From Spartobacteria bacterium LR76 (GTDB taxonomy: Bacteria > Verrucomicrobiota > Verrucomicrobiia > Chthoniobacterales > Terrimicrobiaceae), in assembly GCA_003054655.1 (NCBI GenBank), contig QAYZ01000016.1:310001-374000 (forward strand): a stretch of 64,000 nt of DNA. Reading direction: 5' to 3'. Position 1 is the stretch's first letter; each line of letters opens with the position of its first letter. Positions 21,273 to 30,082 of this stretch are shown here, piece after piece. The notes beneath the pieces are model-generated. The model was not told the origin of the DNA and did no database searches. It was given only the letters and a program-made list of their open reading frames with translations. The position numbers were made by a program, and so were the translations under genes.

Positions 21273-22199
21273 TCAGCCCTCCGCTGCCATGCCGAAGAGA
21301 CCCACATGCTGATTCTTGCCCTTGAGCTGGTGCTCTCCGAGGTCTTTCGCGTCGGCGGGAGGGGCTGGGAGCGTGGAGATCAGGTCGTGCGAGGCCACCA
21401 GGCGGTAGCCGCCCAGTTGCTTCATCACGCTCTCGATGCGGAAGACGGTATTGACTGTGTCTCCGATGATCGTCGCATCGCGCTGGGCGACGAGCCCGAT
21501 ATTGCCGCAGGTGACCGGGCCGTGATGCAGGGCGACGGCGATGCGGAAGGGCTTTCGCTCCACGCCGGGCCAGAAGCGCTTTTGCGCAGCCTCCAGCAGG
21601 GCGAGGCCGCTCTTCATCGCGCTTTCCGCCTCGTTCTTCGCATTCTCCTCCCGCGTCCAGTAGGCGAGCACGGCATCGCCGATGAATTTGTCGATCGTCC
21701 CTCCGCTCGCATGGATGACGTCTCCGGCATCCCGGAACCACTCGCCCAGCATACGGGCAAGGTGCTCCTCGGGGAGGATCTCCGACATCGTCGAGAAGCC
21801 CCGGATGTCGCACACCATCACCGCGACGACGGCGCTCTGGTCCTCGCTGGCATCGGTGCCTGCCGCCATGGTCACTTCATTGGCCATGTCGGCGGGAGCG
21901 TCTTCGTTTTGCTCAAAAATGATCTCGTTGTTGGTGATGCGAATCACCGCCCCGTGGTTGAGCAGGGTGGGGGTGATGACCCGGCGGCCGTTGACGAATG
22001 TCCCATTGCGGCTGCCCAGGTCCATGATCTGATACTGGAAGGCATTGTGGCAGCGGATGATCGCATGCTGTCGGGACACGTGCTGGCTGAAGTGCAGACT
22101 CACCGTGTTGTCCCGGCTGCGGCCGATCGTAGCCGTGTTGCCTACGTCGACGGTGAAGGGTTCACCTTCCGCCGGGCGGATTTTCAACCTTGCTCGCAT
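21273..22199 (-). CDS. FHA domain-adenylate cyclase fusion
   Basis: A 308-residue cytoplasmic protein. The FHA domain (residues ~20-85) has the phosphothreonine-binding set G26-R27, S42, H45 and N65 (TIGRSRDN, SRQHAII, GSRNGTFVN). The class III nucleotide cyclase domain (~122-295) has the metal aspartates D131 (VCDIRGFST) and D175 (KFIGDAV), N250 and R254 (GDTVNTVFR). Lys171 and Asp241 at the base-recognition sites favour ATP, so cyclic AMP is the likely product. FHA binding suggests recruitment by a phosphorylated partner. It lies 32 bases after ribE and abuts the sulfatase. Confidence 0.9.
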   Translation of the reverse strand: MRARLKIRPAEGEPFTVDVGNTATIGRSRDNTVSLHFSQHVSRQHAIIRCHNAFQYQIMDLGSRNGTFVNGRRVITPTLLNHGAVIRITNNEIIFEQNEDAPADMANEVTMAAGTDASEDQSAVVAVMVCDIRGFSTMSEILPEEHLARMLGEWFRDAGDVIHASGGTIDKFIGDAVLAYWTREENAKNEAESAMKSGLALLEAAQKRFWPGVERKPFRIAVALHHGPVTCGNIGLVAQRDATIIGDTVNTVFRIESVMKQLGGYRLVASHDLISTLPAPPADAKDLGEHQLKGKNQHVGLFGMAAEG

Positions 22200-24274: not shown

Positions 24275-24817
24275 TCACTTCCAGCTTACCGTACCGACCT
24301 GGGGGTCCCATTCCGCAACCGGAGTGCGGACCCCGAAGGGTTTTTGCACCGCGTGCAGCAGCGCAGCAGGCGCCCGGTCGATTCTCAACGGCAGGCGATT
24401 TGCCTCGTACGGACGGTTGGCGAGCGTCGTCCACAGCAGGCCGACCAGAGTAAGGGCGATCCCGGCGACGAGGACTCCTCCGCCCAGACCGAGGACGAGT
24501 CCAAGAATGCTGTCGAAGATATTGGTCTCGGTGTCTTTTTGATGACGTTTGCGGATATTGACCGCGAGGCACGCCAGGAGAGCGCCGATTGCGAACAGGA
24601 TGAGAAAGACGGCGGATGACACCACCCCGGGCGATGCGGGAATGATCGGGATCAGGCGCGTGGCCACCTCCGACCAGAGACGCTCGGCGAAGATCGTGGC
24701 GAGGGCGATGCCAACCACGTATTGGAGCACCACAAAGGCGCCATGGCGCCAGCCCAGGTAGGCACCGAGCAGGATCGGGAGCAGACTGGCGAGGAAAATG
24801 ATGAATTCGGTAGCCAT
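24275..24817 (-). CDS. CvpA-family membrane protein
   Basis: A 180-residue inner-membrane protein with four hydrophobic segments (about residues 4-20, 27-45, 66-86 and 105-130) and a conserved start LPILLGAYLGWRHGAFVVLQY. A glycine-rich third or fourth segment (ILGLVLGLGGGVLVAG) is typical of the CvpA family, named for colicin V production and linked to envelope integrity. It starts 6 bases after the secretion ATPase gene on the same strand, so the two are cotranscribed. Confidence 0.75.
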   Translation of the reverse strand: MATEFIIFLASLLPILLGAYLGWRHGAFVVLQYVVGIALATIFAERLWSEVATRLIPIIPASPGVVSSAVFLILFAIGALLACLAVNIRKRHQKDTETNIFDSILGLVLGLGGGVLVAGIALTLVGLLWTTLANRPYEANRLPLRIDRAPAALLHAVQKPFGVRTPVAEWDPQVGTVSWK

Positions 24818-24823
24818 GATGTT

Positions 24824-26761
24824 TTAAACAGCCTGTAGCACTTCCTCGACGGTGGTGATGCCCATGAGGACTTTGAGCGCGCCATCCTGGCGGTAGCTCC
24901 GGAACCCTCTTTCCTCGGCCATGGCAAGGAACGTCGACTCATCGGCGTCATCTCCGACGGCTTTGCGCAAGTCGTCGTCGAGCACGAGGAGTTCGAAAAG
25001 GCCGGTACGCCCTTTGAACCCCGTACCGTCGCAGTCCGGGCAGCCTCGTGATCGATAAATCGGCGTCCCTGGATCAAAGCTGAACCCGATGGATGCAAGC
25101 TCCTCCCCCTCGCAGGCGACTTCCTCGCGGCATGCCGGGCAGAGGACTCGCACCAGGCGCTGCCCGACGATCATGAGGAGCGCCGTGCCGAGCTTGTAAC
25201 GCTCCAGCCCCATGTCCTTCAATCGCGCCAGCGTGCCCGGCGCATCCTTCGTATGCAGGGTGCTGAGGACGAGGTGACCCGTCAGGGCCGCGCTCACCGC
25301 GACCTGTGCGGCTTCCGCATCGCGCATTTCCCCGACCAGGATGACATCGGGGTCCTGTCGAAGGATCGAGCGCAACCCGCTTTCATACGTCACCCCGGCT
25401 TTGACATTCACCGCGATCTGCGTGGCTCCCGCGAGTTCGTACTCGGCGGGGTCTTCGATCGTCATGATGTTGATACGGGAGGCGTCGAGCTGGCGCAGGG
25501 CGGCATAAAGAGTCGATGTCTTGCCAGATCCAGTCGGTCCCGTGGCAAGGATCATCCCGTTGCGCGAATGAATCACCTGCTGGAAGGTCTCAAGCATCTC
25601 AGGCGACATCCCCAGCGCCGTCAGGTCAAAAATCCCCCGGCTGTGGTCGAGCACGCGGATGACGAGCTTTTCCCCGTGGATGGAGTTGGCCGTGGCCACG
25701 CGGAAATCCACGCCGGCTCCACCGAGCCGCGCGCGAAATCGCCCGTCCTGCGCCTTGCGCTTCTCCGAGATGTCGATCTGAGCCAGAGACTTGATCGCTG
25801 TGACAATGCGCCGTCCATCGTCGGTTGCGAAGGCGAATCTCTCGTGCATGATGCCGTCGAGACGGAAACGCACCCGGTATTCCTCGCTGCCCGGCTCGAT
25901 ATGGATGTCGCTCGCCCTTTGATCGAGAGCGGTTTCGAGGATGTCGCCTGCCAGATCGAGGCCGGTGGAAAGGTCGTTTTTCTTTTTGAGCTTGAGCGCA
26001 CGCTGGTCCTCATCGAGGAACTCGATGTTCCGCGCCCCCCGGCGTTTCGGCGCATTGTCGGCAGGTTTTGTCCGTGGCCGTAGCTTTGCGCCCAGCGTCG
26101 ACCAGGGGGACCATGGGGAGCCTTGCTTTGGCAGGAAGGGCTGTACGGCAATGTATAATCCGTAAAGTATCGACCCAAGGATCGGCAGCACGATTGCAAT
26201 ATTGGTCCACATTCCAGGATCGACTCTCCGGTGAACGAGCGAGCGCCTGACCCACTGGAGGCTGTAAATCCAGACAGCCGTAAGCAGAAACAGGGCCGCG
26301 ATTGCGATATCGGCTTTCCACTGAGGATGAGCTGGGGCGTTCCCCGCCGCCAGAGTCGGCTGAGGTGCTGCGGGAGGCGGAGTCGGGACGACTCGCAGAC
26401 GGTCCTGGATCTGCTGCACCTCGGGCACCATGCCGGGAACGACTTCATCCGGTGTGGCGGTTGGCGTTGCTTTAGGAGTCTGGGCGGGAGTCGCCGACGT
26501 GCCGGTCGGCAAGGGAGCGGACCCGGGGATGGTTTTTGCCGGCCCGGGAGCCTTGCCATTGATCGACTTGATCGCCTGCCGGGGGAACTCCGCAACGCCC
26601 TTTGGCATGTGGATGATGACATGGGTCTCCGTCAGGACGGTGCGCACGTCGTGCATTTTCGTTCCATCTTGGAATACCACCTCATCCGCAAGGATGTTTG
26701 CATGTCCCAGAATCAGAGCTGCCAGAATGAGTGCGCCGGTGAGCCGACGTGAAATTGCCAC
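24824..26761 (-). CDS. GspE/PilB-type secretion ATPase with exported-type N-terminus
   Basis: A 645-residue protein. Residues 1-26 look like a cleavable signal peptide (RRLTGALILAALILG, then NILA). Residues 27-70 are a small beta module (DEVVFQDGTKMHDVRTV) and 75-145 a Pro/Thr-rich linker. Hydrophobic segments are at about 152-169 and 187-208. The GspE/PilB ATPase is about 265-640: Walker A GPTGSGKT (408-415), the Asp box IEDPAEYE, Walker B DVILVGEMRD (472-481), the His box THTKD-like LHTKD, and a zinc tetracysteine C541, C544, C574 and C577. No pilus or type II secretion genes adjoin. It starts at GTG 26761. Normal GspE proteins are soluble, so the topology is odd. Confidence 0.85.
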   Translation of the reverse strand: MAISRRLTGALILAALILGHANILADEVVFQDGTKMHDVRTVLTETHVIIHMPKGVAEFPRQAIKSINGKAPGPAKTIPGSAPLPTGTSATPAQTPKATPTATPDEVVPGMVPEVQQIQDRLRVVPTPPPAAPQPTLAAGNAPAHPQWKADIAIAALFLLTAVWIYSLQWVRRSLVHRRVDPGMWTNIAIVLPILGSILYGLYIAVQPFLPKQGSPWSPWSTLGAKLRPRTKPADNAPKRRGARNIEFLDEDQRALKLKKKNDLSTGLDLAGDILETALDQRASDIHIEPGSEEYRVRFRLDGIMHERFAFATDDGRRIVTAIKSLAQIDISEKRKAQDGRFRARLGGAGVDFRVATANSIHGEKLVIRVLDHSRGIFDLTALGMSPEMLETFQQVIHSRNGMILATGPTGSGKTSTLYAALRQLDASRINIMTIEDPAEYELAGATQIAVNVKAGVTYESGLRSILRQDPDVILVGEMRDAEAAQVAVSAALTGHLVLSTLHTKDAPGTLARLKDMGLERYKLGTALLMIVGQRLVRVLCPACREEVACEGEELASIGFSFDPGTPIYRSRGCPDCDGTGFKGRTGLFELLVLDDDLRKAVGDDADESTFLAMAEERGFRSYRQDGALKVLMGITTVEEVLQAV

Positions 26762-26768
26762 GTTGGGG

Positions 26769-26798
26769 CGTATAGACTTGGGAAGGTTGCCGAGTCAA
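26769..26798 (-). promoter_or_regulatory. Sigma-70-like promoter giving a leaderless gspE-type message
   Basis: On the minus strand TTGACT (26798-26793), an 18-base spacer and TATACG (26774-26769) lie so that the start point falls at about 26762, next to the GTG at 26761. The message would have no 5' leader. Confidence 0.6.
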
Positions 26799-26974: not shown

Positions 26975-29900
26975 TCAGGCGTTGGCCTTGGTGCGACGCG
27001 CCACGATGTACCGGGCGATGCTCGCTTCGAGATCGGCCTTGCGGTAGGGTTTCGTCAGATAGTCGTTCATTCCCGCGATCTGGCATTTGAGCCGGTCGTC
27101 AGGCATGGCGGCGGCTGTCAGGGCGGATATCCACGTCTTTTTTCCCGCAGCCCGCAATCGTGCCGTCGTTTCGAATCCGTCCAGACCGGGCATCTGCACG
27201 TCCATGAAGATGAGGTCATACTCCTCGCGTTCACAGGCCTCGAGACACTCGAATCCATCTCCGACGAGGGTGGCCGAGTATCCCAGGGAGAGCAGCATCC
27301 GGGAAATCACCTTGCGATTGATGGCGTTGTCTTCCGCCACGAGGATCTTCAAGGAAGGATGCGCCGCGAGCTCCACCTTGGATTCCTGGGTGGCGGGTGG
27401 TAAGGACGATTCGCTATCCGGGGCGGCTGATTGCCGGAACGGCAGGGTGAAGGAGAAACAGGACCCATGTCCGGGTTCGCTCATTACGGTAAGTTTTCCT
27501 CCCATGAGCTCGACGACACGTGCGGATATGGCCAGGCCAAGTCCCGTACCGCCGTAGCGTCGGGTGGTCGACGAATCCGCCTGACTGAATGGCTTGAACA
27601 GGCGCGACTGGGCGTCCTTGTCAATACCGATGCCCGAGTCGAGGATCTCGACCTTGATGTGATCGGGCTGCTCCGAGGGGGGAGCGGCGGGAGCCAGCGT
27701 TACGCGGAGTTCCACCCAGCCGCGTTCGGTGAATTTGACCGCATTCCCGACCAGATTTAGCAGCACCTGGCGGAATCGCGTGCTGTCGCCCAGGACTTGA
27801 TCAGGCACTTTCGGGTCGATCTGGGCCGAGAGCGCGATCTCTTTGGCGGTAGCAGTCGGCAGGTTCAGGCTGATAACCTCCGCGGCGCATTGACGGATTG
27901 AGAACGGCCGCTGCTCCAGCTCCACCCGGCTGCTTTCCATTTTGGAAAAATCGAGGATGTCATTCAGGAGCCGCAGCAGGGTGTCCCCGCAGCCTTTGAC
28001 CGTTTCCACATATTCCCGCTGCTGCTCGGTCAAGCCGGTTTCTCCGAGTAGTTGGGCAAACCCGATGACGCCATTCATCGGCGTGCGGATTTCGTGGCTC
28101 ATGACTGCAAGGAACTCGCTCTTTGCGCGATCCGCCGCCTCCGCCGCCTCCTTGGCCGCGATGATCTCCTGCTCGGTCTTCCTCCGCGCAGTGATGTTGG
28201 TCAAGGTTCCGCTGATGCCCACCTGGCGTCCGGATGAGTCGTAACGCGGCCGCCACTCGGCCTCCACCCATATCTCAATGCCCGTGGAGCCGACGATGCG
28301 GAAGGGGGCGCTGTCAGGCTTCCCGCCATTCCATGCTCTCAAGACACGCTCCCGGTCATCCGGCCAGATAAAGGGATCGATCGGTCGTCCGAGGCAGTTG
28401 GTGATGCGGTAGCCAGTGGTCTCCTCCCAGGCGGGATTCAGGAACATCCAATGCCCGTTCTGGTTGGTCTGGAAGACGATCTGATCGAGTCCTTCGACGA
28501 GCTCGCGGTATTTCTTTTCGCTGAAAGCCAGTTCTCTCTGCGCGTGCTTGATTTTCCGCAGGTCATGCCAGACGACGAGCATGATCTCCTCTCCCGAGAT
28601 CGTGAGGTGAGTATTGGTCACGTCGACCGGGATCAGCTCGCCGGAAATGTGCTTTTTGTAGCTTTCAAATCGATGCAATCCGCGGAATACCGTGGTGTCC
28701 CAGGAGGAGGTCTCATCGAGGTCCGGCCAGTGGATGGCCAGAGGTTGACGGAGGACGTCGGCTTTGGTTTCCAGGCCGAGCATCTCGATGGTTGCCTGAT
28801 TGCAATCGATGACCCGGTTGCGTGCGACCAGCATGTGGGGATCGGTGGACGCTTCAAAGACCGTCCGGAAACGCTCGTCGCTTACCTTGCGCTCCGTGAC
28901 ATTGAGCAGGGTGCCGTCGACGAGCAGCGGCGAGCCGGAGGCGTCTCGCAGGATCAGGCAGCGATCAAGCAGCCAGATGTAGCGCCCGTCGGCATGTCGG
29001 AAGCGGTACTCCCCTTCATAGGATGTTGCCCTGCCTTTGATCGCCGCCAGGAAGGCCGTCGTCTCGCGCGCCCGGTCGTCGGGATGGAGGAAGCTGAACC
29101 AATCCTCCGTTTTCCGCGGCATCTCGCTGGATTTATAACCGAGGAGGGCTTCGGTCTCGCCCTCCCAGATGATCTCGTCCCCTCCTTGGGGCATGGCAAA
29201 GTTATGCCGGTAGACGATCTGCCCCAGGGATTGGATGACCCGCCGGTCGCGCGCCTCCAGATCGGCCTTTTCCTTGGTGGCCTGCCATTTCCCCTGCTCA
29301 TGCCGCAGGGCCTGCCGGGCATGCCACCAGACAAGCACCCCCAGCAGCATGCCGGTAAAGGCGGAAATCACCGCGGAGAGGAAGCCGGTTTTCTTGAGGT
29401 CCGAGAGCCTGCTCTCATAATCGGCGACGCTCATGTCGATCCCGAGCGAGGCGACAACTTTTCCCTGGGAGTCCCGGATGGGGGCGAGCGCGGAGAGAAA
29501 GGAGCCATACTCGTCGGTGAACGGCTTACGGCTCACAAAGTTCAGCCCTTCTCTGACGGCCTGGACCTCGGCGGCATCCTCATTCGGTGAGAAGCTGCTG
29601 TAGGGTTCCAGGAAACCGGATGGCTTCATGGGACGGGAGAACTCCAGGCTCTTTGCGGAGGTAGCCGTATCGAGAACGAAGTAAAGCTGCCCGTCTTTTT
29701 CGATGAGCGTATAAAGATAGGCGATTTCCGGCGCACGATGATGGAACTTCACGAGCGGCGCGATCAGCCTTTCATAGGTCGCCGGCTCGACCTTCCCACT
29801 CCGTACCATCTCCTGATGAGCATCTCCATCGACCAGACCTGCCGCCGTCCGGGCGGTTCGCTCCAGGCTGTCCTTGATCGTGATGCGCTGCTGGCGCAGC

Positions 29901-30082
29901 GCCTCAATATCCATCAGGAGCAGGCTCGACAGCGCGATGACAAATACAGCGAGTCCCGCCAGAATTCCGTCCCGGACAGGGATGGGTATCCGGGGAAACA
30001 GGTGTTCTTTGGTGTGGTCTGACGACGAACCCACTCGCGGAGAATAGGCACACCTCAGGCAATTTCCAACGTAAACATGCAA
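26975..30082 (-). CDS. Hybrid sensor histidine kinase with three PAS domains
   Basis: A membrane sensor of up to 1035 residues. TM1 is at about 40-60, a periplasmic sensor at 60-230 (cache-like, with PIRDSQGKVVASLGIDMS) and TM2 at about 233-257. Three PAS/PAC modules follow (about 280-400, 400-515 and 515-635; for example YEGEYRFRHADGRYIWLLDR). HisKA has H663 in VMSHEIRTPMNG; the HATPase has DSGIGIDKDAQ and GGTGLGLAI. The C-terminal receiver has the acceptor D961 in IFMDVQMPGLDG. The frame begins at TTG 30082; GTG 30034 (residue 17) is an equally possible start. No output regulator is adjacent, and the partner is unknown. Confidence 0.92.
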   Translation of the reverse strand: MHVYVGNCLRCAYSPRVGSSSDHTKEHLFPRIPIPVRDGILAGLAVFVIALSSLLLMDIEALRQQRITIKDSLERTARTAAGLVDGDAHQEMVRSGKVEPATYERLIAPLVKFHHRAPEIAYLYTLIEKDGQLYFVLDTATSAKSLEFSRPMKPSGFLEPYSSFSPNEDAAEVQAVREGLNFVSRKPFTDEYGSFLSALAPIRDSQGKVVASLGIDMSVADYESRLSDLKKTGFLSAVISAFTGMLLGVLVWWHARQALRHEQGKWQATKEKADLEARDRRVIQSLGQIVYRHNFAMPQGGDEIIWEGETEALLGYKSSEMPRKTEDWFSFLHPDDRARETTAFLAAIKGRATSYEGEYRFRHADGRYIWLLDRCLILRDASGSPLLVDGTLLNVTERKVSDERFRTVFEASTDPHMLVARNRVIDCNQATIEMLGLETKADVLRQPLAIHWPDLDETSSWDTTVFRGLHRFESYKKHISGELIPVDVTNTHLTISGEEIMLVVWHDLRKIKHAQRELAFSEKKYRELVEGLDQIVFQTNQNGHWMFLNPAWEETTGYRITNCLGRPIDPFIWPDDRERVLRAWNGGKPDSAPFRIVGSTGIEIWVEAEWRPRYDSSGRQVGISGTLTNITARRKTEQEIIAAKEAAEAADRAKSEFLAVMSHEIRTPMNGVIGFAQLLGETGLTEQQREYVETVKGCGDTLLRLLNDILDFSKMESSRVELEQRPFSIRQCAAEVISLNLPTATAKEIALSAQIDPKVPDQVLGDSTRFRQVLLNLVGNAVKFTERGWVELRVTLAPAAPPSEQPDHIKVEILDSGIGIDKDAQSRLFKPFSQADSSTTRRYGGTGLGLAISARVVELMGGKLTVMSEPGHGSCFSFTLPFRQSAAPDSESSLPPATQESKVELAAHPSLKILVAEDNAINRKVISRMLLSLGYSATLVGDGFECLEACEREEYDLIFMDVQMPGLDGFETTARLRAAGKKTWISALTAAAMPDDRLKCQIAGMNDYLTKPYRKADLEASIARYIVARRTKANA

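Follow-up and report, generated by a model that had tools for sequence, protein, structure and literature searches.

A conserved subfamily of GspE/PilB-type ATPases with a predicted membrane anchor and a CvpA partner gene in one verrucomicrobial class

Introduction

Type IV pilus assembly ATPases are generally described as cytoplasmic proteins recruited by PilM. The same picture is drawn for GspE in an excerpt of PMC6882859, where GspL recruits this cytoplasmic protein to the membrane, contact is made between N1E and GspL's cytoplasmic part, and a flexible linker joins N1E to N2E. Two further described proteins bear on the locus reported here. Loss of CvpA leads to deoxycholate sensitivity in enteric bacteria, with export suggested, according to an extract of PMC6705877. 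For the cardiolipin synthase ClsA, passages of PMC9385802 give two predicted helices, the second with a conserved motif of unknown function, and state that the first hydrophobic region of the E. coli protein is possibly lost after synthesis; part of a review places the ClsA active site on the periplasmic side. A search of the open-access literature, with subscription journals outside its scope, found no report of a signal-peptide or transmembrane GspE/PilB protein in Verrucomicrobia.

The DNA analyzed (the window) is a stretch of 64,000 nucleotides from Spartobacteria bacterium LR76 (assembly GCA_003054655.1, contig QAYZ01000016.1, positions 310,001 to 374,000). It encodes an ATPase of the GspE/PilB type that belongs to a conserved, anchored subfamily, unlabelled in the libraries searched. 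If this account is true, self-anchoring would be a second way of coupling an assembly motor to the envelope and would offer a simplified system for studying ring action beneath the membrane. It would also make the topology of a PLDc_N-like hairpin testable through a reporter of easily read location, and would give the poorly understood CvpA family a candidate physical partner.

Results

The ATPase gene forms a single intact frame with its stop codon at 24824–24826. The layout proposed by a sequence-only reading of this DNA (signal-peptide-like start, beta module, Pro/Thr linker, two hydrophobic segments, ATPase) was borne out by the open reading frame, Pfam and calculated insertion energies (dG; Hessa-type scale, approximate coefficients). 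The features are listed below.

24824..26761, minus strand: GspE/PilB-type ATPase gene, 645 aa, predicted membrane-anchored; GTG start, stop included
26687..26761, minus strand: signal-peptide-like start, residues 1–25; RR, hydrophobic run, ILA immediately ahead of DEV
26552..26686, minus strand: five-stranded small beta barrel, SH3/Sm-like (predicted fold), residues 26–70; dN/dS 0.007
26324..26551, minus strand: Pro/Thr/Ala-rich linker of low conservation, residues 71–146
26249..26320, minus strand: first membrane segment (segment 1), residues 148–171; dG -1.17 for 148–168
26213..26248, minus strand: short basic inter-segment loop, residues 172–183
26144..26212, minus strand: second hydrophobic segment (segment 2), PLDc_N-like, residues 184–206
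26174..26188, minus strand: LPxxG motif inside segment 2, residues 192–196; invariant in 14/14 alignment rows
25967..26143, minus strand: basic, fast-evolving linker from the membrane pair to the ATPase, residues 207–265
25607..25966, minus strand: N2-type domain of GspE/PilB ATPases, residues 266–385
24827..25606, minus strand: catalytic domain, residues 386–645, with Walker A, Walker B/Glu, His box and two CxxC pairs
25517..25540, minus strand: Walker A, GPTGSGKT, residues 408–415
24275..24817, minus strand: CvpA-family (PF02674) membrane protein gene, conserved partner, 6 nt downstream of the ATPase gene
26769..26798, minus strand: conserved stretch ttgact-18 nt-tatacg upstream of the ATPase start, tentative promoter candidate; identical in G002, similar in G001

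The Pfam family T2SSE matched residues 272–642 (E 2e-119, 398.9 bits vs a cut-off of 24.9), with weaker generic AAA matches inside the same region; no Pfam family was found ahead of it at E 0.001, and no Pfam cut-off was reached anywhere before residue 265. Among NCBIfam models the best score was that of GspE (463 bits, below its cut-off of 630), and PilB scored 424 bits (cut-off 676, also not reached). GspE (PDB 1p9r) aligned with residues 265 to 643. The protein shares with GspE and PilB the N2 and catalytic domains, Walker A and B motifs, His box and CxxC pairs, but in place of N1E/MshEN it carries some 265 residues that comprise the signal-like start, the barrel with its linker, and the membrane pair. 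It is a member of the T2SSE / GspE-PilB superfamily but no canonical GspE or PilB equivalog. N1E/MshEN was not found at E 0.001 in the whole protein or at E 10 in the first 265 residues, and MshEN (N1) was present in three of the four other GspE/PilB paralogs tested from the same genome. By these profile searches the docking domain is gone, and the predicted N-terminal modules occupy its place.

Walker A, Walker B/Glu and both CxxC pairs were kept in 14/14 copies of the family; the histidine of the His box was kept in 13 and replaced in the G005 copy. The His box reads SLHA in L248, L249, L250 and L251 (the G618, G629, G591 and G599 copies) in place of SLHT or TLHT, the histidine being retained. 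Because the catalytic motifs are kept and dN/dS lies near 0.03 (below), these sequences are most simply read as those of an active enzyme that uses ATP. A soluble ATPase would be free of membrane segments; in this family segment 1 is hydrophobic in every copy (14/14, dG from -2.6 to 0.02).

The sequence-only reading had proposed looking for the same architecture in related genomes, and it was found. When 58 relatives were searched, long matches were obtained at 89, 82, 55, 56, 49 and 53% identity, the last beginning at residue 125. Named relatives, 'Verrucomicrobia bacterium' (81%) and 'uncultured Spartobacteria bacterium' (74%), place the host among the Verrucomicrobia. With frames read, the full layout was present in 12 genomes, which belong to two orders of a single verrucomicrobial class; like the other counts for this family, 12 is a lower bound (the best 13 or fewer, or best three or fewer, candidates per genome were scored). 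The complete copies come from the window's order (G000, G001, G002, G027, G043, G044, G051 and G078) and from another order of the class (G591, G599, G618 and G629). Five further genomes hold partial copies. That of G009 is without the N2 domain; that of G005 is without a recognizable beta module, segment 2, N2 and the His-box histidine, and may be decaying; that of G006 (L152:6435-7509) has an in-frame TGA within the membrane pair, and its catalytic domain was not found; those of G094 and G110 are cut by contig ends. The ATPase and CvpA unit seems to be decaying in the genus of G006, and the gene is dispensable in genera g4 and g5, because their copies are shortened or broken. Two relatives in the window's family of genomes, G005 among them, carry open frames without N2 in which Walker A is kept (L126:9225-10574 and L127:8926-10338).

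Across 384 genomes of the class, with the best three or fewer candidates per genome scored, members of the family scored 683–1138 bits, and no other listed ATPase exceeded 462. Ten members formed one side of a branch with 100/100 support in a tree of 75 ATPases. Values of dN/dS between G000 and G002 show purifying selection on the beta module (0.007) and the membrane pair (0.046), with N2 at 0.029 and the catalytic domain at 0.028; the two linkers, at 0.25 and 0.23, are relaxed.

These data also settle whether the protein is an artefact, two genes fused by sequencing error or chimera, for which the odd layout is the sole support. The sequence-only reading had named a frameshift near codon 150–260 as a way in which its account could fail. 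Genomes of three other families align across those codons at 49–56% identity, the layout is kept in the 12 complete genomes of two orders, and purifying selection acts on both sides of the join; a frameshift or chimera was rejected on these grounds and is practically negligible. A translation start downstream of the hydrophobic region, its other named way of failing, is unlikely from the cross-genome identity and dN/dS. This is a real, conserved protein family.

The first 24 codons, too few and too alike between G000 and G002 for dN/dS, had a pS of 0.09 vs 0.48–0.63 in the other six segments. The ttgact...tatacg stretch ends about 7 nt ahead of the GTG; a consensus scan found no promoter-like site. 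This stretch might possibly be a promoter yielding a near-leaderless message, and with the low pS it would be compatible with a regulatory overlap or near-leaderless start.

Judged by eye, the last residue of the signal-like start is small (A or G) in 14/14 copies, and the start directly precedes the beta module in all 13 copies that possess one; its cleavage and export are putative. The hydrophobic stretch 2–25 has a dG of +0.29 kcal/mol. AlphaFold, applied to 14 N-terminal rows, gave five strands at 26–67 and a helix at 147–178 (block pLDDT 65–85); the full-length model, at a mean pLDDT of 52, was too low for use. The nearest solved fold to the barrel was that of YgdI/YgdR (DUF903) lipoproteins (Z 4.9, 47 residues aligned, rmsd 1.9), at an identity of only 6–15% and a Z low enough to reflect mere common arrangement. 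Likeness to Hfq was nearly equal (Z 4.5, within a tie margin of 1, with others tied too), and Foldseek returned nothing under E 0.001 for the barrel, its top ranks being Hfq. Barrel-like modules also follow signal-like starts in other verrucomicrobial proteins, as found with a search model that contained the signal and is biased to that extent.

In the window's protein dG was -1.17 kcal/mol for segment 148–168 and +0.16 kcal/mol for 184–206; segment 2 ranged from -1.1 to +1.8 across copies, several being hydrophobic enough for crossing. In the AlphaFold model of the N-terminal rows segment 2 is a helix broken at 192 (182–191 and 193–209) with no clear hairpin (block pLDDT 75–78), and in the low-confidence full-length model it is one straight helix.

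The membrane pair resembles the PLDc_N hairpin of cardiolipin synthases, to judge by profile comparison and a shared pattern. Both have two segments and a W...LPxxG...Y pattern, but the ATPase family is without the phospholipase domain of PLDc_N proteins. PF13396 (PLDc_N) matched 8/14 members at E up to 1 (best 0.0077) and did not match the window's ATPase; two membrane pairs scored 15.4 and 16.4 bits against a cut-off of 23.3. With hhalign, the family membrane-pair profile matched a six-row PLDc_N-type set at 96.8% (E 2.7e-10) and a CvpA control at 0.5%. The six rows had been chosen via the family profile, so the match is supportive and not independent; one of the six exceeds the Pfam PLDc_N cut-off alone. 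The cardiolipin synthases among the profile matches were recognized by eye from their HKD motifs, and the N-terminal pair of ClsA is taken here to be PLDc_N. The comparison with ClsA is loose, because that protein may shed its first hydrophobic region. A stand-alone PLDc_N protein gene lies directly after a pilT gene in G093 (L182:3896-5422). A general link between the two was dropped: the arrangement was seen in G093 only, and up to 1.5 kb on each side of 30 other pilT loci the best PLDc_N match had E 0.75.

The CvpA gene 6 nt from the ATPase gene scored 43.3 bits against PF02674 (cut-off 29.3), and the window's genome has no second PF02674 match at E 0.001. In a profile search at E up to 1, a CvpA gene or remnant directly followed 13 of the 15 ATPase copies with readable downstream DNA. 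It is whole in G000, G001, G002, G027, G043, G051, G078, G591, G599, G618 and G629, split in two in G009 and reduced to a remnant in G006. The search profile consisted of nine of the CvpA neighbours, and G001, G009, G629 and G006 were new to it; eight neighbours exceeded the PF02674 cut-off and that of G078 fell below it (E 6e-5). No CvpA gene was found downstream at E up to 1 in G005 or G044, the latter with a complete ATPase and no CvpA gene within 3 kb downstream. CvpA is a conserved partner of the anchored ATPase.

Fourteen neighbours of the window's ATPase were classified with Pfam: CvpA, DUF4410, GDSL lipase, sensor kinase, sulfatase, FHA-cyclase, lumazine-binding, ABC transporter genes, glycosyltransferases, a sigma factor and a methyltransferase. 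No pilin, PilC/GspF or secretin gene was among them, in agreement with the earlier statement that only a CvpA-like gene is coupled. The neighbours of orthologs were judged by eye, except CvpA and two pilT-like genes in G027, which the ATPase gene directly follows on the same strand.

The window's genome encodes four T2SSF/PilC-like proteins. One short PilC/GspF-like gene lies beside ribD (L252 9489-10466), unlinked to the window's ATPase gene, and no assembly ATPase was found within 1.5 kb of it. This gene was matched in 46/213 genomes of the order: in 13/13 genomes with a complete or partial ATPase (G110 being counted by an N-terminal part at a contig end only) vs 33/200 others (Fisher 5e-10, kinship ignored), or by genus 7/7 vs 11/38 (Fisher 7e-4, kinship ignored). 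The idea of this association arose from the same data. All 12 genomes chosen from those 33 were without the ATPase; two of the 12 are less than 90% complete. The co-occurrence runs one way only and makes the ribD-linked gene a weak lead as a candidate platform partner of the ATPase.

Discussion

The sequence-only reading had posed a sound paradox: an exported start followed by two crossing segments would leave the ATPase outside. It offered two ways out, a re-entrant segment or an N-terminus that is not exported. Both are sound, and the family data lean toward the first, because the signal-like start is present in 14/14 copies and the net charge, averaged over the 13 copies with both segments, is -0.9 ahead of segment 1, rises to +1.2 between the segments and reaches +2.5 in the 25 residues that follow segment 2. 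That reading had overlooked the replacement of the usual N1/MshEN domain, the likeness of the pair to PLDc_N and the conservation of CvpA as a partner. The account preferred here, given a probability of roughly 0.5 as a whole, is a self-anchored assembly ATPase with a cytosolic catalytic core and the barrel outside. If the signal is used, the barrel would lie outside the inner membrane, segment 1 would cross from outward to inward and the LPxxG segment would enter the membrane without crossing it. It would follow that the ATPase is in the cytosol, where it would work as a ring held beneath the membrane by its own subunits. The family-wide charges fit such a layout, which would have loop and ATPase inside. 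Segment 1 as the crossing segment is supported by the G005 copy, which has one segment and would, with an exported start, leave the ATPase inside. Against this account stand ties in K/R counts, a segment 2 that is modelled as helical and in several copies is hydrophobic enough for crossing, and the periplasmic location reported for the ClsA active site.

Were the N-terminus not exported, the barrel would be cytosolic, the segments an in-out-in hairpin and the ATPase again inside. Such an arrangement would suit the K/R counts, which are higher in the flanks (N plus C) than in the loop in 11/13 copies, tied in two (G000 and G001, the window's own protein being one of these) and lower in none, and it would suit a helical segment 2 as predicted. 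It is nevertheless judged unlikely: the hydrophobic start and its small final residue persist in 14/14 copies of otherwise differing letters, the stretch ahead of segment 1 is net acidic on average, the barrel resembles lipoprotein domains (though Hfq nearly equally), and similar modules follow signal-like starts in other verrucomicrobial proteins (with the biased model). A working signal with both segments crossing would put the ATPase outside the inner membrane, as simple counting of the signal-like start and membrane pair would have it. The ClsA active site, with the pair of that protein taken as PLDc_N, could be read in the same way, and so could the basic loop of the window's protein, where the earlier remark that basic residues flank both sides of segment 2 was right (RRSLVHRR in the loop, K/R after residue 206). 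Conserved catalytic motifs and a dN/dS of about 0.03 make little sense without ATP, however; the residues following segment 2 are, on the mean over copies, more basic than either of the other two regions, with RRRRR in G618, and both CxxC pairs are kept. An external ATPase is held to be very improbable, and so is its specific form, a PLDc_N-like hairpin running out-in-out with an intact ATPase outside that would have an unknown nucleotide supply or act as a nucleotide-binding scaffold.

As to function, the self-anchored ATPase would most likely drive or modulate a pilus or pseudopilus platform encoded elsewhere in the genome, a role that rests on homology because no pilin, PilC or secretin gene adjoins. 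The outside barrel and CvpA could take over the docking, sensing or gating done elsewhere by GspL or PilM/N/O. The purpose would be the one served by GspL or PilM-PilN-PilO, a ring tied to the membrane and to something outside, but here the tie would be covalent and the outside part a small beta barrel, with no actin-like domain. A protein that is no longer a pilus motor and works only with CvpA, for example as an energized export or envelope-homeostasis unit, is quite doubtful. The two-gene unit kept across two orders, the sole CvpA match in the genome, the absence from the window of adjoining pilin, PilC or secretin genes, and the reported deoxycholate phenotype would all be in keeping with it. 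Speaking against it, all 12 complete copies retain the entire T2SSE core, N2 and CxxC pairs included, the G027 gene follows pilT-like genes, and G044 has its complete ATPase without CvpA in the 3 kb downstream.

Several minor observations were made alongside. An anti-phage role was dropped, PADLOC giving no match for the ATPase or CvpA. A separate cluster in the same genome (L183:1739-19001 and L184:285-2570) holds several prepilin-like starts (by eye) together with a PilC, a secretin and a PilB-type ATPase of 761 aa that lacks MshEN. Positions 21273–22199 of the window encode an FHA domain fused to an adenylate/guanylate cyclase catalytic domain. Upstream of the ATPase gene and on the same strand, positions 26975–30082 encode a 1035-aa hybrid sensor kinase (PAS, HisKA, receiver), which adjoins the ATPase in only three genomes, all of the genus, among the nine compared.
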